This document shows positions 30,482 through 38,451 of a stretch of DNA of 38,451 nucleotides, piece after piece. The notes under the pieces are model-generated. The model did no database searches. It worked only from the letters and a program-made list of their open reading frames with translations, and had not been told where the DNA came from. Both the position numbers and the translations under genes were made by a program. The DNA comes from Nesterenkonia sp. (GTDB lineage Bacteria; Actinomycetota; Actinomycetes; Actinomycetales; Micrococcaceae). The stretch covers positions 1-38,451 of the forward strand of contig NZ_JAJUJJ010000025.1 of assembly GCF_029265375.1 (NCBI RefSeq), in the 5' to 3' direction. Position 1 is the stretch's first letter. Each line of letters opens with the position of its first letter.

Positions 30482-30688
30482 ATGGCTATGACTTTGCGTC
30501 TGCCCGAGGAGCTGGATCGGCGGCTCGATGAACTTGCTGCTCAGCGGCATACCTCGAAGCACTCTCTGGTCCTGCAGGCTGTTGAGGAGCTTGTCCGCGC
30601 CCAGGACGCCCAGGAGAAGATCGACCGGGCGGTGGACTATACGTTTGAACGCTACGGCGACGTGGTGGACCGACTCGCTGACGCCTGA
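30482..30688 (+). CDS. RHH-type antitoxin
   Basis: A 68-residue protein with the ribbon-helix-helix pattern: the strand MTLRLPEELDRRLDELA followed by helices HTSKHSLVLQAVEELVRA, then an acidic tail (EKIDRAVDYTFERYGDVVDRLADA) expected to bind the toxin. It should bind the operator just upstream as a dimer and neutralise the Doc-like protein encoded next. The stop shares one base with the toxin start (TGATG). Confidence 0.88.
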   Translation: MAMTLRLPEELDRRLDELAAQRHTSKHSLVLQAVEELVRAQDAQEKIDRAVDYTFERYGDVVDRLADA

Positions 30689-31053
30689 TGCAGCGCATCA
30701 CGCTGGCTCAAGCACTCGGCGTCATCGACAGGCTGGGCTTCTATGTGCGCGACGAGGGACTTCTGGAGTCCGCGTTGGCTCGTCCGGCCGCCTCAGTCTT
30801 CGGCCGCCCCGCATACGCCTCACTCCCCTTAGCCGCCGCCGCTCAGACTGAGTCGCTGGCCCGGAACCACCCGCTGCTCGACGGCAACAAGCGGACCGCC
30901 TTCTTTCTGCTGAACGTCTTTCTGTCGCTCAACGATGCCCGGCTGGAGGCCAGCGACGACGAGTTGTTCACCTATATCGTCGACGTCGCCCGAGGGACGT
31001 TGGACTTAGACGGCTCGGCTGAGTTCCTCCGCGGCCACCTCACTGCCTGGTAG
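30688..31053 (+). CDS. Fic/Doc-family toxin
   Basis: A 121-residue protein with the Fic/Doc motif HPLLDGNKRTA (His61 to Ala71), matching HxFx(D/A)GNKR except for Leu in place of Phe. The size and pairing with an RHH antitoxin point to the Doc type, whose known member phosphorylates elongation factor Tu; nucleotidylation of another target is also possible. Both key residues, His61 and Lys68, are intact, so it is probably active. Confidence 0.88.
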   Translation: MQRITLAQALGVIDRLGFYVRDEGLLESALARPAASVFGRPAYASLPLAAAAQTESLARNHPLLDGNKRTAFFLLNVFLSLNDARLEASDDELFTYIVDVARGTLDLDGSAEFLRGHLTAW

Positions 31054-31165: not shown

Positions 31166-31195
31166 TTGCAGAAACCTGAATGCCCCAGATATTCT
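31166..31195 (+). promoter_or_regulatory. Promoter of the SipW/TasA-like operon
   Basis: TTGCAG (31166-31171) and TATTCT (31190-31195) are 18 bases apart, a good match to a housekeeping promoter. The predicted 5' leader is about 135 bases and GC-rich; no known riboswitch was recognised in it. Confidence 0.6.
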
Positions 31196-31336: not shown

Positions 31337-31969
31337 ATGACTCAGCACCCCGCTCCCGCTGCATCCTCCACCGACCGCCGCCGCAAAGTTCAGGCCGTTC
31401 TGGCCGGCGGTGTGGTCCTCGGCATCGGCGCTGCCGTGACCCTGGCTGCGTGGAATGACTCCGAATTCGCCTTCGGCACCTTCGGATCGGCCTCATTCAA
31501 TCTGGAGGGCTCCACCGACGGCACAACCTATGCGGACAACGACTCCGAAGGTGCCGCCGCCGAACTGGAGTTTTCAGCAGAGAACGTGATCCCCGGCGAG
31601 ACCCTCTACGCCCCCTTCTGGGTTCGTCTGGACGAGGCGACCACGGTGGACGGCACGATCGAGGCCGAGGACGGTATTGAGATCGTCGCTTCCGAGGGCG
31701 CCAACGTGGATTTTCTGTCCTACTCCGTCTACGCCGACCCGGCCAGCTGCGATGCTGAAGGCGTCGCCGACGGCACCCCGGTAGCCTCGGGCGCCGATCT
31801 CTCCGCGGGCGTGGGCTCCGAGCAGACCCTGAACCTCACTGCAGGCGACGGCGCCGCCGGCACCCCCATTCAGCTGTGCTTCGTGGTGCAGGCTAATGAG
31901 ACAGAGCTGCAGCAGGGAGAGCCGGCCAGCGCCACGTGGCAGGTCCTCGCCACTTCGCTTGAGGGCTGA
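31337..31969 (+). CDS. TasA/camelysin-like secreted protein with SipW-type signal, 1
   Basis: A 210-residue secreted protein. The signal peptide is DRRRKVQAVLAGGVVLGIG, followed by LAAWNDSEFAFGTF (36-49), the pattern of SipW-dependent signal peptides in TasA and camelysin-type proteins (compare the WAAFND of Bacillus TasA). The mature part is rich in beta-strand patterns, acidic (many Asp/Glu) and has two Cys in positions matched in the next protein. It could be a fibre or surface-layer subunit. The ATG at 31337 is preferred because upstream in-frame sequence disrupts the signal peptide; the Shine-Dalgarno sequence (GAAAGAAG) is weak. Confidence 0.82.
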   Translation: MTQHPAPAASSTDRRRKVQAVLAGGVVLGIGAAVTLAAWNDSEFAFGTFGSASFNLEGSTDGTTYADNDSEGAAAELEFSAENVIPGETLYAPFWVRLDEATTVDGTIEAEDGIEIVASEGANVDFLSYSVYADPASCDAEGVADGTPVASGADLSAGVGSEQTLNLTAGDGAAGTPIQLCFVVQANETELQQGEPASATWQVLATSLEG

Positions 31970-32601
31970 TGACACGGCACCCGAACCGTCCATCACCACC
32001 GTCCAGCACTCGCTCGTCCCTGTGGCTGCGCAGGGTCCGCGCACTGCTGGCCGCGGGGGTGGTGCTGGGCGTGGGCGCCACAGTGACGATGGCGGCATGG
32101 AATGACTCCGAGTACGCCACCGGCACCGTCACCGCGGGGACCTTCGCGCTGGAGGGCTCAGTCGACGGCGCCACGTTCACAGCCACTGACGCCTCCAACC
32201 CCCATTCCTTGGGCTTCTCGCCTGGCGCTGACCTGATTCCTGGCTCCACCAGTTACGCGCTGTTCAGCGTGCGCACCCAGGAAGGTTCCACCGGCGGCAG
32301 CGTCCAGGTGCTGGCCGATGACGGCAATACTGGCGGGCTGAACCAGCACCTGACCTATGGTCTGCGCACCATCGGGGGCACCACCTGCAACGCCACCACC
32401 TTTGAGGCGGGCACTGCGGTGGTGCAGCGCGGCTCGGCAATGACCGCTGACGCCCCATCCAGCCAGCCGGTAGCGGCCGACCAGGGATCCACTGTGAACT
32501 ACTGCCTGGAGCTCACCCTGAACAGTGACGCCCCCAATGACGCCCAGGGAGCCACGGCCTCCCCGGGCTGGCAGTTCCTAGGCACCAGCTCAAGCGAGTG
32601 A
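31969..32601 (+). CDS. TasA/camelysin-like secreted protein with SipW-type signal, 2
   Basis: A 210-residue paralogue of the preceding protein. RRVRALLAAGVVLGVGATVT leads to MAAWNDSEYATGTVTAGTF (41-59), and both genes keep nearly the same DNA across AAWNDSE. The mature region is less acidic, rich in Thr, Ser and Gly, with two Cys. Its ATG overlaps the upstream stop by one base (TGATG) and its stop overlaps the signal peptidase start (GTGA), so the three genes are translated together. It is likely a second subunit or minor component of the same extracellular structure. Confidence 0.82.
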   Translation: MTRHPNRPSPPSSTRSSLWLRRVRALLAAGVVLGVGATVTMAAWNDSEYATGTVTAGTFALEGSVDGATFTATDASNPHSLGFSPGADLIPGSTSYALFSVRTQEGSTGGSVQVLADDGNTGGLNQHLTYGLRTIGGTTCNATTFEAGTAVVQRGSAMTADAPSSQPVAADQGSTVNYCLELTLNSDAPNDAQGATASPGWQFLGTSSSE

Positions 32602-33968
32602 GTTCTGTGACTGCCCGTATCCGGCACTGGATCACAGAGGTGCTGCTGTGGATCCTCGCAGTCAGCGGGCTTGCCGCCATCGTGATGGTCATCTGCGCCT
32701 ACGTGTTCAATGTGTCCATCATCCTGTTCCGCACCGGATCCATGGAGCCGACTATCCCGGCCGGCTCGGCCGCGCTGGTCCAGGAGATCCCGGCCTCCGA
32801 AGTGGAGGTGGGCGATGTCCTCACTGTGGACCGGCCGGGTCAGCTGCCGGTGACCCACCGCGTCACCTCCGTCGAACCGGGCGACGGGCCGCAGGAGCGC
32901 ATCATTACGATGCAGGGCGACGCCAACGACTCGGAGGACCCGTATCCCTACACGATCACGGAGGGGCGCGTGCTGCTGGCCTCCGTTCCGGGGCTGGCCC
33001 AGCCGCTGCACCAGATGAACAACCCCTACGTCCTCGGCGGGCTGACCCTGGGCGCTTCGCTGCTGGTGGGCTGGGCATTCTGGCCCCGCAGCCGGGACAC
33101 CGACGACGACGCCGCAGCCGACTCTCAGGAACCCACGGCAACGGAATCTACCCTAACCGATGAGCACAGGCCTCGCCACGGTACACGGCGAGCCGCCGGT
33201 GTCTCGCTGATCGCTGTGCCGGTCGTCTCGGCACTGGTTGTTGCCGCACCGGCAGAGCCCGCGCAGGCGGCGCCGGACCAGGAGCTGGTGCAGGAGACCC
33301 GCAGCTCGCAGCACATCACGCTGACCTCGGTGTATGACCCGGGCTCTCGGCAGAACCTGGCACCGGGGGCTGTGTCGGTGTGGGATATCGGGGTCGCTTT
33401 CGACACACCTACGCGCGGTGATGCCCGGGTGGGTCTGAGCTCTGCCGGGCATCTGCCTCTGCAGGTGACGGTCCGCCGCTGCGCTGTCGAGTGGAGCACT
33501 CCCCCAGGGTCAACTTCCACAGAACCGACTGACTGCCCCGGGGGTGCTGCCGCTGCGGTGGCAGACTATGTGGTCTCTCCGGAGGAGGAGATCGCATGGA
33601 TCGATGAGTTCTCCACCGACGTCGAACCGTGGCTGCGCCTGGATATCCAGCTCCCCGATGACGACCAAGCGCTCCAGGACAGTGAAGCGCAGCTGAGTAT
33701 CCACGTCGGGGCCCGGGAGGACGAGGCCTCAATCGGAGCAGACGTCCCGGGGGCCGATGCGTCTCAGGAGGACGACGGCCCCTCCGCCGGCGAGACCTCT
33801 CCGACCGGAGAAGCCGCGAGCGCCGATTCCTCAGCCGTCGCTGGTTCCGGGACTGCTGAGCGGGAGGAGCAGGCACTGGCCCGCACCGGCGTCTCGGTGC
33901 TGGCGCTGCTAGTGGCCGCCCTGGCCTCCATGCTGCTGGGCCGCTGGATGATGAAGAGGGCGGGGTGA
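32598..33968 (+). CDS. SipW-type signal peptidase fused to an LAxTG-anchored ectodomain
   Basis: A 456-residue fusion. Residues 1-165 are a signal peptidase I of the SipW/ER type: helix 17-38, catalytic Ser48 in GSMEPTIPAGS, His87 in VTHRV in place of the usual bacterial Lys, the GDAND box (107-111) and a second helix at 145-162. After an acidic linker, a second signal-like helix ends in PAQAAPD (near 200-226), followed by an ectodomain of about 160 residues, an acidic Ser/Ala-rich stalk and the cell-wall sorting signal LARTG (427-431), a hydrophobic helix and MMKRAG. No start codon with a Shine-Dalgarno sequence was found in the linker, so the fusion looks real. It should process the two upstream TasA-like proteins. 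Confidence 0.82.
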   Translation: MSSVTARIRHWITEVLLWILAVSGLAAIVMVICAYVFNVSIILFRTGSMEPTIPAGSAALVQEIPASEVEVGDVLTVDRPGQLPVTHRVTSVEPGDGPQERIITMQGDANDSEDPYPYTITEGRVLLASVPGLAQPLHQMNNPYVLGGLTLGASLLVGWAFWPRSRDTDDDAAADSQEPTATESTLTDEHRPRHGTRRAAGVSLIAVPVVSALVVAAPAEPAQAAPDQELVQETRSSQHITLTSVYDPGSRQNLAPGAVSVWDIGVAFDTPTRGDARVGLSSAGHLPLQVTVRRCAVEWSTPPGSTSTEPTDCPGGAAAAVADYVVSPEEEIAWIDEFSTDVEPWLRLDIQLPDDDQALQDSEAQLSIHVGAREDEASIGADVPGADASQEDDGPSAGETSPTGEAASADSSAVAGSGTAEREEQALARTGVSVLALLVAALASMLLGRWMMKRAG

Positions 33969-33974
33969 GACCCC

Positions 33975-34538
33975 ATGGTGCACATCCGCCGAGCTGACCG
34001 GCGACGCCGTGCTTCAAGGCGACGCGCCATTGCAGGCGCCGCCGTAGTGATGGCAGCTCTGACGGTGAGCGCCTCACCTGGAGCAGACGAGATAGTGGAT
34101 ACCACCGAGGCCGCATGGCAGGTTCAGCAACCTGCCGCCGGATCGGTCACCGCGGCTACGATCCCCTCTCCTGTTCTGACCAGCCAATGCCGGTACAGGT
34201 CGGGCCTCCTCGGCCTGGGGGCGCGTGTGGAGATCTACTGGGCCGCCCCGGAGGGCTACACGGTGGAAGACGCTGAAGTCTTCGCTTCCACTGAGGGTCT
34301 CGGATCGGTTCTCGCGCCGCTGACGGGATTCAATGTCGAGGATGAGACCACTGGCAGTCCAACCAACTACACCACGCAGATAAAGTCCAATCTGCTGGGG
34401 GGCTTGTTAGGACTGGGCTCTGAACTAGAAGTGGCCATTGTCATGTCCCGCCACGGGTGGACCTCGGAACCTGCCTCCATCGCCAGCAATGCTGGGCTCA
34501 TTGTTGGCATTGGTGGGAATTGCCGCAACCTCTCGTGA
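33975..34538 (+). CDS. Small secreted protein with SipW-like signal region
   Basis: A 187-residue protein with a very basic n-region (RRADRRRRASRRR), a hydrophobic core (AIAGAAVVMAALTVSA) and then TTEAAWQVQQPAAGSVTAATI, which resembles the AAWNDSE...GT...AGT block after SipW-type signals. The mature part has a beta-rich VEIYWAAPEGY segment similar to Fn3-like strands and two Cys (72 and 183). I do not recognise a named family. It starts 6 bases after the signal peptidase stop and closes the operon; its stop codon lies inside the shared hairpin. Confidence 0.72.
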   Translation: MVHIRRADRRRRASRRRAIAGAAVVMAALTVSASPGADEIVDTTEAAWQVQQPAAGSVTAATIPSPVLTSQCRYRSGLLGLGARVEIYWAAPEGYTVEDAEVFASTEGLGSVLAPLTGFNVEDETTGSPTNYTTQIKSNLLGGLLGLGSELEVAIVMSRHGWTSEPASIASNAGLIVGIGGNCRNLS

Positions 34539-34558
34539 GACGGCGTCGCGCGTCTCAC
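34535..34558. terminator. Hairpin shared by two convergent genes
   Basis: GTGAGACG (34535-34542) and CGTCTCAC (34551-34558) form a perfect 8-bp stem with an 8-base loop. The plus-strand stop codon (34536-34538) is in one arm and the minus-strand stop codon (34555-34557) is in the other. It probably ends transcription in both directions, although no T-run is present. Confidence 0.6.
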
Positions 34559-35646
34559 CGCCAACTTCGTCGGGCGAGGTGGACCATGCGTTCGAGTCGT
34601 CGGTAGCTGCGGTCGCGGATGAAGATCGCGTCCACCGCAATCATCGTCAGGGAGAACCACGGCAGGCCCATCAGCAGGCCGATCGCGCAGTGGAAGGACA
34701 GGATCCCCAGCAGCGCGATGATCCGCGTCGCCCGGTTGAACAGCAGGAACGGGAAGGCGATCTGGAACAGCAGGGATCCCCAGGTCAGCGCCACCACCAG
34801 CGGGCCCCAGGCAGTCAGCAGGTCGGAGAGCACCGGCCAGGTGCCGAAGTGGGCGGTCTGCAGCGGGTTGTAGATGGCGAAGCCGTACTTCCACGCGTCG
34901 CCCCCTGCCTTGTACAGGCCGCCGGAGACGTAGATCGCGCAGACTTGGAACGCCAGCACCACCAGCGCCAGGTTGTGCGCGGTGATCAGGACCCACGGCG
35001 CTCGCTTCTCCAGCCATGAGGGCTTATTGCCGCGCTTTTCACGTCGTCGTGCGTCCAGGGACCATCGCATGGAGCTGTTGGTGAACAGCATGGCCAGCAG
35101 GAACATGCGGTAGGCGTTGTCGCCTTGGTCGCCGACAGCGTCGTTGGTTTCGATGAAGCTGACCCACAGCACCAGGTAGATCGGCAGCACAATGCGGGTG
35201 CGCCAGCCCAGCAGCACCAGGACCGCGATGATTCCCAGCAGGATATAGGCAGTGGTGAACAGCCCTGGGTGCGGGAGGAGTCGGTGGAACAGGGAGAACA
35301 GCCAGATCTGTGGGAAGTCGCTGACCGGTTCTGCCAGCTCGCCGCGCCAGGCTCCTCCGACGCCGAATACGTAGTGGCGTGCGCGGAAGTTCGTCAGCAG
35401 CAGGCCGATACCGGTGATGGCCAGCACGATGCGGGTCACCGCGATGCCGTAGGTGGCTTTGTAGCTGCCGGTCAGCTGCTCTTCGAAGCGTCCGAAGAGG
35501 TCGTTGAGCCGGGCTGCCTGCCGTTTGGCGCCGGCCACCACCACGGGGACCAGCGCTTCTTCAGCGGCTGGCTTAGTGGGGACTTCGGTGTCTTCGGCGA
35601 TGTCCTTCTCCGGCGCGGACGTCCGCTTGGCGGTCTTCTTACTCAT
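34555..35646 (-). CDS. HTTM domain protein (SdpB-like, gamma-carboxylase-related)
   Basis: A 363-residue polytopic protein with a Lys/Glu-rich N-terminal tail (1-65) and about eight helices. It fits the HTTM family: GYSAT-like TRIVLAITGIGLLL, GDNAYRMFLLAMLFTNSSMRWSLD (175-198), YVSGGLYKAGGDAWKYGFAIY (239-259) and the late FHCAIGLLMGLPWFS. Lys246 in the GLYK segment sits where vitamin K-dependent carboxylases have a key Lys. Bacterial members include SdpB, which acts in maturation of the Bacillus SdpC toxin. The ATG at 35646 is used because the sequence upstream of it is antisense to the DUF5819 gene. It overlaps that gene's stop by 8 bases. Confidence 0.85.
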   Translation of the reverse strand: MSKKTAKRTSAPEKDIAEDTEVPTKPAAEEALVPVVVAGAKRQAARLNDLFGRFEEQLTGSYKATYGIAVTRIVLAITGIGLLLTNFRARHYVFGVGGAWRGELAEPVSDFPQIWLFSLFHRLLPHPGLFTTAYILLGIIAVLVLLGWRTRIVLPIYLVLWVSFIETNDAVGDQGDNAYRMFLLAMLFTNSSMRWSLDARRREKRGNKPSWLEKRAPWVLITAHNLALVVLAFQVCAIYVSGGLYKAGGDAWKYGFAIYNPLQTAHFGTWPVLSDLLTAWGPLVVALTWGSLLFQIAFPFLLFNRATRIIALLGILSFHCAIGLLMGLPWFSLTMIAVDAIFIRDRSYRRLERMVHLARRSWR

Positions 35647-36415
35647 CGGTCTGGCACACCTCCAGCGGAGCCGAGCAGAAGTAGGAGGCGAATTCCTCCT
35701 GGGACTGCATGTTTTCGACGACGAGGCCTCGCCATCCCAGCGGCACCGGCTGGATGGCGGGCCGTTCCGCGTTGCGGTTGTTCCGCTGGTGGAACGGCAC
35801 CACGTTTTGGCGGGCAACCTGATATTGGACCCGGACGACGTCGTCTCCCCAGATTGCGAGGGCCACTTGGGTTGCATAGGCGGTAGCTCGCTGTTCTGCC
35901 TCCAGATACTCCAGCAGCTGCTCTTCGTTCTCGGTGACCTCCAGCAGCGTCTCGGTCATGCGCTCGTCCCAGTCCTCTTTGAAGTAGTTCAGCCCCACAA
36001 TCTCCTGCTCTGCTTCGCTGAGGCTCTCCCATTCGCCTTTCAGCGTGGAGGCTTGGGAGTTGGCCAGCTTGGCCGCCCGTGGCGGGAAGGGCCTGTATGT
36101 GGCCAGGGATTGCTCCACGTCTGTGGCCCGAATCCACTCGGTCACTTCGACCTCGCCGTCGGTTTCGACGACGGCACGGACGTCGAAGTAGTAGTCACCG
36201 TTGATCGGTTCTGGCGCGAAGACGCTCCATGACTGTCCGAACATCGGGATCATGTACTCCTGCAGCGCGTCGCCGGGGACCACCTCCCGCAGTGCGGAAG
36301 GTGGAGCTATCCAGAGGAAGGAGGCGAAGAGGTGCCAGATGGTCACCAGGGCGGCTGCGCTGATGGCCAGCCGTTTGATGACTTGCCTCTTGCCGGTGGG
36401 CCGGTCCTTGGTCAT
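35639..36415 (-). CDS. DUF5819 family (SdpA-like) membrane protein
   Basis: A 258-residue protein with one N-terminal helix (about 13-34) and an extracytoplasmic part. The MFGQSWSVFAPEPINGDYYFDVRA segment is the hallmark of DUF5819/SdpA-type proteins found beside HTTM proteins. Glu-rich helices follow, and the C-terminus has two Cys in FCSAPLEVCQ. GAGGAA lies 8 bases before the ATG. It overlaps the HTTM gene and the two should form a membrane complex. It follows the acidic repeat protein across a 125-base gap with a strong hairpin. Confidence 0.82.
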   Translation of the reverse strand: MTKDRPTGKRQVIKRLAISAAALVTIWHLFASFLWIAPPSALREVVPGDALQEYMIPMFGQSWSVFAPEPINGDYYFDVRAVVETDGEVEVTEWIRATDVEQSLATYRPFPPRAAKLANSQASTLKGEWESLSEAEQEIVGLNYFKEDWDERMTETLLEVTENEEQLLEYLEAEQRATAYATQVALAIWGDDVVRVQYQVARQNVVPFHQRNNRNAERPAIQPVPLGWRGLVVENMQSQEEFASYFCSAPLEVCQTDE

Positions 36416-36453
36416 GATGCAGTTCCTCAGTAAGGGTGGGGTGGAAGCGCGGA

Positions 36454-36484
36454 AGGGGTCCGGGCGCGGTGCGCCCGGACCCCT
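36454..36484 (-). terminator. Strong 14-bp hairpin between the surface protein and DUF5819 genes
   Basis: AGGGGTCCGGGCGC and GCGCCCGGACCCCT pair perfectly over 14 bp with a 3-base loop, 57 bases after the surface protein stop on the minus strand. No T-run follows on that strand. It may end most transcripts of the repeat protein while letting some read into the two downstream genes, or protect the 3' end of the mRNA. Confidence 0.65.
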
Positions 36485-36540
36485 ATCACATAGTCGAGCT
36501 CACGCCCGAACTATGCACCGCTCATCAATCAGCTGCCCAC

Positions 36541-38451
36541 TTAGTGGGTGCTGGCTGCACGGCGCCGCTTGGCATACACCAGCGCACCCGAGCCCAGCAG
36601 CAACAGCAGCAGGCCCAGCACAGTCAATGCCACGATGTTACCGGCACCAGTAGTAGCCAGATCATCATCGTCAGCATCGCCTGCAGCACCAGCACCGGCC
36701 ACGACCTCAAATCCAATGGACTGATCATCGTAGCCCTCAGCGGTCAGCGAGAACGTATGGTCATCAATCAGAGCCTCATCCGGGATCTCCCATGTGAAGA
36801 CCACAGTGCCGTTCTCATCAGCAACCTGGACACCCAGATCAATCGTCGGCTCACTGTTCATGAACCCACGCACCTCAGTGCCCGGCTCATAACCATAGCC
36901 ATACCCGATCTGAGTCTCACCACGGCGGATGACCTCGTGCTCAATATCGATGTCGATCTCACCAGCCTCCACATCCGGGGCCGGATCCACCACCACCAGT
37001 GACGCCGAAGCAGACACCTCCGGATCCTCATCATCGGTGGCAGTGACAGTCAGGCTGCCAGGCTCAGTACCCTCAGGCACAGTCCACTCCACCTCGAAAG
37101 AACCATCCTGGTCCACCTCGACACCCTCAATGGTGTCGATGACGTTGCCATCCTCATCCGTGATCTCCACAGTGACCGTCGAATCAGGGGTGAAGCCCTC
37201 ACCACTAACAGTCACCTCATCACCAGGAGTCGCCTGATCCGGCTCCACCGACAACGACGGCTCGCTTACACCATCGTCATCGCCAGTGCCATCAGCAGCA
37301 CCATCAGACTCCGCAGCAGCAGCCGCTGCGGCATCCGCTTCTTCGTTGCCATCCGCGTCAGCGGCGGCAGTCGCCGAGGCAGAAGCCGAGGCATTAGAGG
37401 TGGCCGCGGCAGAACCGGCAGCTGCTGCGTTGCCCTCAGCCGCTGCGCTGGCCTCTGCGTTGGTGTCATCCGAGGCGTCAGCCTGAGCGGCAGCCTGGGC
37501 AGCCGCAGTCGCCGAAGCGTTGGCGTCCTCACTCACATCGGCCGAAGCGTCAGCAGAGGCTTCCTCGTTAGCGGCAGCTTCAGCAGCGGCCGTCGCGTCA
37601 GCATCGGCAGCAGCGGAAGCGGCATCGGTGGCATCAGCCTGAGCCGCAGCAACTGCGGCAGCGGTAGCCGCCGGGTCACCATCAGCCGCAGCATCCGCCG
37701 ACGCCGCAGCCGAAGCAGCAGCGTTCGCGTTCTCATCCGCTTCCGCCTCGTCGGTGCCGGTCTCGTCACCCTCGGGGTCAGCAGCGGCCTCGTCGGTGCC
37801 GGTCTCATCGCCTTCGGGGTCGGCAGTGGCTGTGCCGGTATCATCGCCGTCTGCCTCAGCAGCGGCGTCAGCCGAAGCCGCAGCGGAGGAGTCAGCAGTG
37901 GCGGCGGCCGAGGCGGCAGCTGCCGCATTCGCATCCGCCGCAGCGGTAGCGTCTGCGTTGGTTTCATCGGAGGCGTCAGCCTGTGCGGCGGCCTCAGCAG
38001 CTGTCGTGGCAGCAGCGTTGGCGTCCTCGCTCACATCAGCCGAAGCCTCGGAGGAGGCTTCCTCGTTAGCGGCAGCCTCAGCAGCGGCCGTAGCGTCAGC
38101 TTCCGCAGCAGCGGAAGCGGCATCAGTGGCATCAGCCTGGGCCGCAGCTTCCGCAGCAGCCTCAGCCGCCGGGTTACCGTCAGCATCAGCATCAGCCGAC
38201 GCAGCAGCGGAGGCCGCCGCATTCGCGTTCTCGTCCGCGTCCGGGTCAGCAGCGTCATCCGCGTCTGCGTCAGTCTCCTCGGTCGCATCAGCATCAGCCT
38301 CAGCATCCGGGTCCGCCGCAGCATCCGCGTCAGCGTCAGTCTCCTCGGTCGCATCAGCATCAGCCTCAGCATCCGGGTCCACCGCAGCATCCGCGTCAGC
38401 GTCAGTCTCCTCGGTCGCATCAGCATCAGCCTCAGCATCCGGGTCCACCGC
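36541..38451 (-). CDS. Acidic Ala/Asp/Glu-repeat surface protein with LATTG anchor (N-terminus cut)
   Basis: An open frame of 636 codons that enters the window from the right without a start; the GTG at 38448 is simply a Val codon in a repeat. From the N-terminal side it has 22-residue repeats of the type DPDAEADADATEETDADADA, two long Ala/Ser/Asp-rich direct repeats of about 130 residues each, and DPEGDETGTDEA repeats between them. Next comes an Ig-like/IPT-type domain (VEPDQATPGDEVTVSGEGF), a further beta-rich segment, and a sorting signal: DDDDLATTG, a hydrophobic helix and AKRRRAASTH. It should be exported and linked to the cell wall by a class E-type sortase that accepts LAxTG. It resembles adhesins with a long flexible stalk. 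Confidence 0.88.
   Translation of the reverse strand, partial: AVDPDAEADADATEETDADADAAVDPDAEADADATEETDADADAAADPDAEADADATEETDADADDAADPDADENANAAASAAASADADADGNPAAEAAAEAAAQADATDAASAAAEADATAAAEAAANEEASSEASADVSEDANAAATTAAEAAAQADASDETNADATAAADANAAAAASAAATADSSAAASADAAAEADGDDTGTATADPEGDETGTDEAAADPEGDETGTDEAEADENANAAASAAASADAAADGDPAATAAAVAAAQADATDAASAAADADATAAAEAAANEEASADASADVSEDANASATAAAQAAAQADASDDTNAEASAAAEGNAAAAGSAAATSNASASASATAAADADGNEEADAAAAAAAESDGAADGTGDDDGVSEPSLSVEPDQATPGDEVTVSGEGFTPDSTVTVEITDEDGNVIDTIEGVEVDQDGSFEVEWTVPEGTEPGSLTVTATDDEDPEVSASASLVVVDPAPDVEAGEIDIDIEHEVIRRGETQIGYGYGYEPGTEVRGFMNSEPTIDLGVQVADENGTVVFTWEIPDEALIDDHTFSLTAEGYDDQSIGFEVVAGAGAAGDADDDDLATTGAGNIVALTVLGLLLLLLGSGALVYAKRRRAASTH
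37341..37734. repeat. Long direct repeat in the surface protein gene, copy B
   Basis: Encodes about 130 residues beginning ENANAAASAAASADA and ending near DADGNEE. It is an imperfect copy of 37848-38232, offset by 498 bases (166 codons). Shared landmarks are QADATDAASAAA, AAANEEAS and ADVSEDANA in the same order. Confidence 0.75.
37848..38232. repeat. Long direct repeat in the surface protein gene, copy A
   Basis: Encodes ENANAAASAAASADAD through EADGDD, matching copy B in order and spacing. The two copies have diverged mainly by Ala/Ser/Thr/Glu exchanges, so they are an older duplication than the 66-bp array beside them. Confidence 0.75.
38251..38451. repeat. 66-bp tandem repeats (22-residue unit) at the window edge
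   Basis: Three copies in phase with the reading frame, each encoding (A/V)DPDAEADADATEETDADAD. The landmark TCAGTCTCCTCGGTCGCATC recurs at exactly 66-base steps (38270, 38336, 38402). Copies are almost identical and the array continues out of the window, so copy number may vary between strains. Confidence 0.9.

Follow-up and report, generated by a model that had tools for sequence, protein, structure and literature searches.

A SipW-type secretion operon facing a choice-of-anchor G surface protein and a DUF5819-HTTM pair in Nesterenkonia: separable modules of a plausible common surface assembly

The window analysed in this work is a stretch of 38,451 nucleotides from Nesterenkonia sp. which represents the entire contig C30 of a genome (G000) of 58 contigs and 2.72 Mb. 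In its last part, a plus-strand run of genes coding for two secreted proteins called TasA-like, a SipW-type signal peptidase and a small secreted protein (P4) meets a minus-strand cluster coding for a long acidic surface protein, a DUF5819 protein and an HTTM membrane protein. All seven genes had been proposed from the letters alone, and the open reading frame (ORF) calls place them between 31337 and 38451 in the expected orientations. The two halves are separable modules which are adjacent more often than chance, and one surface-protein family, choice-of-anchor G (chG), is tied to both. This recurrent linkage, together with the ties of the chG family to each half, makes a shared assembly plausible at the level of sequence comparison. 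We give about even chances to a reading of the locus as two arms working together in a single assembly at the cell surface, a SipW-processed fibre-like set and a chG wall stalk serviced by DUF5819-HTTM.

The original prediction, according to which both halves belong to one system, looked for repeated linkage in distantly related genomes. Such linkage was found in 5 of 30 Nesterenkonia genomes, in 4 of the 47 genomes of family f11 and in [Zimmermannella] faecalis. In a sample of the order (347 genomes, SipW counted at E<=1e-25), four DUF5819-SipW pairs were observed within 10 kb, those of the window and of three f11 genomes, for about 0.2 expected, and a chance neighbourhood of the two genes was rejected on these figures. 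In the same sample, SipW was present in 32 of the 51 genomes with DUF5819 versus 26 of 296 others, and in 43 of the 61 genomes with chG versus 15 of 286 others, both comparisons being uncorrected for relatedness. For these counts, rows with DUF5819 below cut-off (G313, G000:C57), chG below cut-off (G412) and the second piece of the G327 chG were dropped; an edge piece of 34 bits (G451:C30) was retained as a DUF5819 locus. Among the 30 Nesterenkonia genomes, both genes were found in 8, SipW without DUF5819 in 4, DUF5819 without SipW in 3 and neither gene in 15 (p 0.0086, relatedness uncorrected), SipW being counted at E<1e-50 and the weaker or broken matches of G005, G014, G015, G018, G024 and G028 being taken as no SipW. 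In the five linked genomes (G000, G001, G009, G022, G029), DUF5819 and SipW are convergent and at most about 2 kb apart; the draft copies are interrupted in G001 (HTTM and SipW) and in G022 (DUF5819, HTTM and the SipW tail). In f11 (SipW at E<=1e-20), DUF5819 was found in 8 genomes, SipW in 10, both in 6 and linked copies in 4, and co-occurrence within f11/g42 gave p 0.0017, again without correction for relatedness.

The gene order differs from one locus to another. It reads P4-TasA1-SipW-chG-DUF5819-HTTM in G512, TasA1-TasA2-SipW-(one ORF)-P4-chG-DUF5819-HTTM in G529, P4-chG-DUF5819-HTTM-(three opposite-strand genes)-TasA1-TasA2-SipW in G394 and chG-DUF5819-HTTM-(two ORFs)-P4-TasA1-TasA2-SipW in G602. 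In [Zimmermannella] faecalis, the genes share one strand: a gene for an anchored, Ala-rich protein, truncated at the start of the contig, is followed by DUF5819 and HTTM, then by a single TasA-like gene and by SipW. This SipW carries a tail and a P4-like end which is 23% identical to the P4 of the window. The seven gene types occur together in the window, G029, G022, G394, G529 and G602, and also in G001, where the chG domain lies off the contig; no P4 match was obtained in G009, and the TasA-like gene is single in G512 and in [Zimmermannella] faecalis. In the phylogenetic trees, SipW from the five linked Nesterenkonia genomes groups in a single clade (support 87/90, under the mark for strong support) whereas the DUF5819 genes of the linked genomes fall into two deep lineages, one with the window and G009 and the other with G029, G001 and G022. 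The partners were therefore exchanged beside each other at least once and not merely co-inherited. On the plasmid pTCL of Curtobacterium sp. TC1 (L206), a DUF5819-HTTM pair and a pair of SipW and SipW-dependent protein genes are about 16 kb apart, a spacing too loose for this plasmid to be counted as a linked case.

The surface protein of the window gives 19.3 bits with the sorting-signal model TIGR01167 (cut-off 15.9) and 28.9 bits with MG2, below the cut-off of 32.8, and its Ig-like region has tblastn matches in several Nesterenkonia surface genes. Another contig of the same genome, C7, ends inside an open frame that starts right after purA, with tdk nearby (L205 11494-13422), and that codes for a leader and a choice-of-anchor G domain (NF033766, 189.4 bits, cut-off 45). 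This frame is probably the N-terminal half of the surface protein; its continuation into the window is drawn from the two contig ends and from the gene order of G009. There, metY, a CoA-binding gene, a LuxR-type regulator, TasA-like 1 and 2 and SipW face HTTM, DUF5819 and chG, followed by purA and tdk, and the chG protein counts 1403 residues; the labels of metY, purA, tdk, the regulator and the CoA-binding gene were checked by matches. The window very probably shares this order in an assembly broken in repeats, and its long surface protein very probably belongs to the chG family. The ends of C7 and C30 are described separately here and their sequences were kept unjoined. All 6 complete surface proteins picked for the scan matched NF033766, and a single chG domain had no convincing relative in the PDB. 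Of the 11 Nesterenkonia genomes with DUF5819, 6 (G000, G001, G003, G007, G008, G014) have a contig break no more than about 2 kb upstream of it and, because these breaks lie in or near the repetitive surface gene, draft-based counts of the presence or absence of the surface protein are unreliable.

The chG family is also found beside SipW, with another leader. Among the 84 chG loci of the order sample, 27 have DUF5819 only within 10 kb, 11 have SipW only, 2 have both and 44 neither, against a chance expectation of about 0.36 chG-SipW pairs. In the 11 SipW-only loci, which belong to families f1, f7, f8, f14 and f19, chG and SipW share the strand, with chG 0.9-1.6 kb further downstream. The leader and the anchor were then read in 68 chG proteins of the loci examined. 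Of the 11 SipW-linked proteins, 10 match a SipW-type leader motif ([ADS][AST]W..(.)[EQ]) ahead of the chG domain by pattern and the last one on visual reading; 0 of the 57 other chG proteins, 3 of which are without a leader region, do so. The sorting signal follows the opposite distribution (0/11 versus 52/56), and the median tail behind the chG domain is of 213 residues in the SipW-linked proteins versus 895 in the others, one chG piece (L178, tail <60 residues) having been dropped from these last counts. Judged by leader and tail, chG occurs in two forms, an unanchored one delivered by SipW and a wall stalk with an ordinary leader, the latter usually accompanied by DUF5819-HTTM in the loci read. 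The window combines the wall-stalk form with a P4-bearing SipW operon. These two contexts come from the present comparison, the NF033766 library match naming the domain only. In the open-access literature searched, no description of the seven-gene set and no mention of 'DUF5819' were found among the matches listed, and 'choice-of-anchor G' was not found in the same literature.

Several counts weigh against a joint function of the two halves. SipW was near only one of 80 named DUF5819 loci, that of [Zimmermannella] faecalis, and in the order sample only 4 of 55 DUF5819 loci had a strong SipW match at 10 kb or less. The named loci are the best 80 of 149 found, a selection which leans to the DUF5819 type of the window, and cover up to 10 kb on each side (27 are short upstream and 14 downstream). 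In a sample of the family (245 genomes), a reading by eye gave no pair within 20 kb among the matches listed for the 39 non-Nesterenkonia genomes carrying DUF5819. Furthermore, in the two loci where SipW and DUF5819 both neighbour chG, the chG leader is of the ordinary type, 44 of 84 chG loci are near neither gene, and 28 of 55 DUF5819 loci show no chG match within 10 kb. Of these 28, G000, G051 and G509 are truncated at a contig end lying some 2 kb or less upstream, the ends of the others being partly checked. No tie could be retained between the anchored SipW tail and DUF5819, since an open frame of at least 380 codons was found in 22 of 32 genomes with DUF5819 and in 16 of 26 without it. 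Within Nesterenkonia, the interval between metY/CoA-binding gene and purA was readable to its end in part of the genomes. G012 and G025 carry SipW there and lack the cassette, G008 (65% complete) carries the cassette and lacks SipW, and G019, G024 and G026 (L180, L183 and L184) carry anchored acidic chG proteins with neither SipW nor DUF5819-HTTM nearby. Independent occurrence of the halves in most genomes had been named beforehand as the result that would refute one system, and the halves are indeed usually apart; their linkage nevertheless recurs in three lineages, Nesterenkonia, f11 and [Zimmermannella] faecalis, so that the one-system idea stands in part.

These data bring in another explanation, in which two independent surface cassettes simply share a variable interval tolerant to surface genes, the Nesterenkonia neighbourhood being then uninformative on joint function. 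The interval is empty, with purA about 1 kb or less from the CoA-binding gene, in seven Nesterenkonia genomes (G003, G006, G007, G015, G016, G018, G027), and others hold either half alone or chG alone; G017 contains pieces of a TasA-like gene and of a chG gene there, and G005 the remnant of a SipW gene. In the window, the interval also holds a toxin-antitoxin pair located between the CoA-binding gene and TasA-like 1 (30482-31053), consisting of a ribbon-helix-helix antitoxin-like ORF (PF01402, 28.6 bits) and then a Doc-type toxin (TIGR01550, 51.4 bits), and Doc matches of 63-68% identity adjoin the same CoA-binding gene in G002 and G017. Together with the separation of SipW and DUF5819 in most genomes, this hot-spot explanation fits within the genus. 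However, a hot spot of one genus cannot account for the linked partners of two further families, which lie in varied gene orders and on one strand, nor for the chG genes that come after SipW and code for SipW-type leaders in five families (11 genomes), and we consider it possible but rather unlikely.

On the minus strand, DUF5819 and HTTM form a real conserved module. At all 80 named loci HTTM is the next gene after DUF5819, and in 64 of them DUF5819 has upstream of it a gene for a chG protein or for one with a sorting signal (41 of the 53 loci whose upstream sequence is complete, chG itself in 39, and 23 of the 27 short ones); where chG is present, it is upstream, on the same strand and within 5.6 kb in 40 of 40 loci. 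The proposed cluster of an LATTG surface protein, a DUF5819 and an HTTM protein is confirmed, TIGR01167, PF19136 and PF05090 being all above cut-off. Confident structure models were obtained, with a predicted local distance difference test (pLDDT) of 88.0 for HTTM and 91.1 for DUF5819. The latter displays one long N-terminal helix (8-36), which probably spans the membrane, and a mixed helix/strand domain; DUF5819 had no convincing PDB match by sequence. A tandem-duplicated DUF5819-HTTM pair stands behind one chG protein in G029 (L040 7552-11690), and its two DUF5819 copies fall into different branches of the type-B clade. A further pair is carried by a plasmid labelled Bacillus subtilis DK01 (CP123774.1, L060 11451-13413), with an HTTM 56% identical to that of the window and an LPXTG protein about 3.6 kb away on the opposite strand; this stretch has 58.5% G+C and the Bacillus subtilis label looks doubtful. 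In the genome of the window, a second DUF5819 match (G000:C57:58065-58244) is weak, with 21.7 bits, and below cut-off.

One possible function of this module comes from the comparison with SdpA and SdpB. By this account, DUF5819-HTTM matures or releases a peptide, such as a toxin, from a surface-protein precursor. Three adjacent genes are present as in sdpABC, and HTTM gives 61.6 bits with the SdpB family model TIGR04033, though the cut-off is 178.4; the processing of SdpC requires SdpA and SdpB (PMC6818787) and weak sdpABC homologues are reported in Brevibacterium (PMC5719810). DUF5819, however, has no NCBIfam match at E<=1, and the partner is mostly a sortase-anchored chG stalk of 700-2100 residues instead of a short precursor carrying a hydrophobic toxin segment. 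The SdpA identity of DUF5819 was rejected on the basis of this library scan, with no direct SdpA sequence comparison. At family level, sequence gives the SdpA/SdpB comparison no support for DUF5819 and a match below cut-off for HTTM, and we judge a toxin-maturing role very unlikely.

The HTTM profile also matches the human gamma-glutamyl carboxylase GGCX, with an E value of 6.8e-6. The catalytic Lys218 of GGCX (position by our own count) is aligned with Lys246 of HTTM, a residue invariant in 12 of 12 and in 43 of 43 alignment rows. This result, and the richness of the window's surface protein in Asp and Glu, would be compatible with a working quinone-dependent carboxylase making gamma-carboxyglutamate on the acidic stalk to yield a calcium-binding surface. 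Nevertheless, His160, which is described together with the catalytic Lys218 as an essential GGCX residue in PMC9146348, falls on Gly175 of HTTM (GDQGDN stretch) in a weakly aligned segment of 7.2 bits, and the anchored acidic chG proteins of L180, L183 and L184 have no HTTM nearby. As Glu represents just 1-3% of the stalk in many partners, carboxylation of the stalk is a minority reading, and a quite improbable one.

On the plus strand, the peptidase is related to the archaeal/ER type of signal peptidase I and its profile matches human SEC11C (E 5.8e-9). Ser43 and His82 are unchanged in 12 of 12 alignment rows and are presumably the catalytic serine and its histidine, instead of lysine, partner. 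With the Bacillus SipW equivalog model NF046067 the enzyme gives 31 bits, below the cut-off of 190. Its tail ends with LARTG, a hydrophobic stretch and a positive end, in agreement with the proposal of a SipW-type peptidase with its own cell-wall anchor. The name TasA-like is justified by the SipW-type leader and the size of the two secreted proteins, and not by sequence homology to TasA or camelysin. PF12389 (Peptidase_M73/camelysin) had 0 matches in the genome of the window, the Bacillus subtilis control being positive; neither protein has a Pfam match at E<=1, and a 16-row profile matched no TasA or camelysin chain in the PDB, which contains TasA chains. TasA homology was rejected on these three negative results. 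The P4 of the window had no match in the Pfam and NCBIfam scans. Its homologue in L163, 51% identical, gives 30.5 bits with the leader model TIGR04088, and A46, W48, C72 and C183 are invariant in a 10-row alignment; P4 is thus probably a third SipW-leader protein. Large regulator genes were noticed near several TasA-SipW operons (L040, L041, L042, L194, L195, L204), and the two that were scanned, in L041 and L204, end in a LuxR-type DNA-binding domain; such regulators could control these operons.

The features of the locus are collected in Table 1. The plus-strand genes from 31337 to 34538 are an operon-like run because neighbouring stops and starts overlap or almost touch, the start of TasA-like 2 overlapping the stop of TasA-like 1. 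For TasA-like 1, the ATG at 31337 is preferred and a longer alternative ORF starting with TTG at 31166 is unnecessary; for HTTM, the best start is 35646 and overlaps the DUF5819 stop. Between the facing genes, the stop codons of both P4 and HTTM sit inside an 8-bp inverted repeat which is a possible two-way terminator, its fold being just slightly more stable than those of shuffled sequences. The sigma-70 and terminator scans yielded no more than shuffled sequence.

Table 1. Genes and other elements of the locus, numbered from the first nucleotide of the window.
Feature	Position	Strand	Details
TasA-like protein 1	31337..31969	+	ATG start; SipW-type leader (..LAAWNDSEFAFG..); TIGR04088 27 bits, cut-off 19
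TasA-like protein 2	31969..32601	+	SipW-type leader (..MAAWNDSEYATG..); TIGR04088 32.4 bits, cut-off 19
ER/SipW-type signal peptidase	32598..33968	+	peptidase domain at about residues 1-165, then secreted tail; TIGR02228 54 bits, cut-off 51.85; PF10502 23.9 bits
P4, small secreted protein	33975..34538	+	degenerate SipW-type leader end (EAAWQVQQPAAG)
Perfect 8-bp inverted repeat, candidate terminator	34535..34558		arms 34535-34542 / 34551-34558; -14.4 kcal/mol, z -1.97
HTTM protein (SdpB / gamma-glutamyl carboxylase superfamily)	34555..35646	-	PF05090 50.3 bits, cut-off 27.7
DUF5819 protein	35639..36415	-	PF19136 128.9 bits, cut-off 27.1
Surface protein, C-terminal part	36541..38451	-	5' end lost at contig end; Ala/Asp/Glu-rich repeats, Ig-like (MG2-like) domain, LATTG sorting signal
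Ig-like domain of surface protein	36994..37251	-	residues 399-485 hold MG2 and PGS Ig-like matches, both below cut-off

In the reading of two co-functioning arms, the SipW-type peptidase would remove the special leaders from both TasA-like subunits and from P4, and the new N termini might polymerise or cap a fibre-like structure. The analogy is with Bacillus, where, according to PMC10151520, TasA subunits are held together through donor-strand complementation and the filament is initiated by TapA via a homologous N terminus. P4, or chG where it bears a SipW-type leader, could cap or start such a fibre. The long sortase-anchored chG protein with its repetitive stalk should be exported by an ordinary leader, and the DUF5819-HTTM membrane pair, as both proteins are encoded with it, would most likely mature or modify this stalk during export. 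The chG domain would join the two arms, and the anchored stalk could tether the fibre. The fibre, the tether, the modification and the physical contact between the arms are what we infer. A more specific version, in which the SipW-processed subunits polymerise on a chG stalk matured by a split GGCX-like machine of HTTM and DUF5819 using menaquinone for a new or GGCX-type modification, seems improbable to us. If true, this version would give the bacterial HTTM superfamily a natural role other than toxin maturation. DUF5819 and the paired actinobacterial HTTM, two families with no function assigned to them, gain a likely partner, chG or other wall-anchored surface proteins, the chG family is linked to SipW-type secretion via a leader switch, and the function of SdpB/GGCX-like proteins outside toxin settings becomes testable in harmless actinobacteria.

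The locus can finally be set against four known systems. The tapA-sipW-tasA cluster of Bacillus and the sipW-calY1-bc_1280-calY2 cluster of B. cereus are described in PMC10151520. Like them, the window associates a SipW-like ER-type peptidase with two SipW-leader secreted proteins and a small further one; unlike them, its secreted proteins have no detectable TasA/camelysin homology, its peptidase has a secreted LARTG-ended tail, and a chG-DUF5819-HTTM cassette lies alongside. As in sdpABC and yitPOM, a membrane protein of the HTTM type and a partner predicted to have one membrane helix at its N terminus stand beside a secreted substrate-like protein, whereas the SdpB model is matched far below its cut-off and the neighbour is a large wall-anchored chG protein instead of a short toxin precursor. 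With GGCX, the HTTM protein shares its superfamily and an invariant lysine aligned with the catalytic one, but the His160 position is unmatched in a weakly aligned segment, a separate partner (DUF5819) is present and carboxylation would be a putative activity. Through its N-terminal half, the surface protein very probably falls within the choice-of-anchor G family, whose SipW and DUF5819-HTTM contexts were both found in this comparison.

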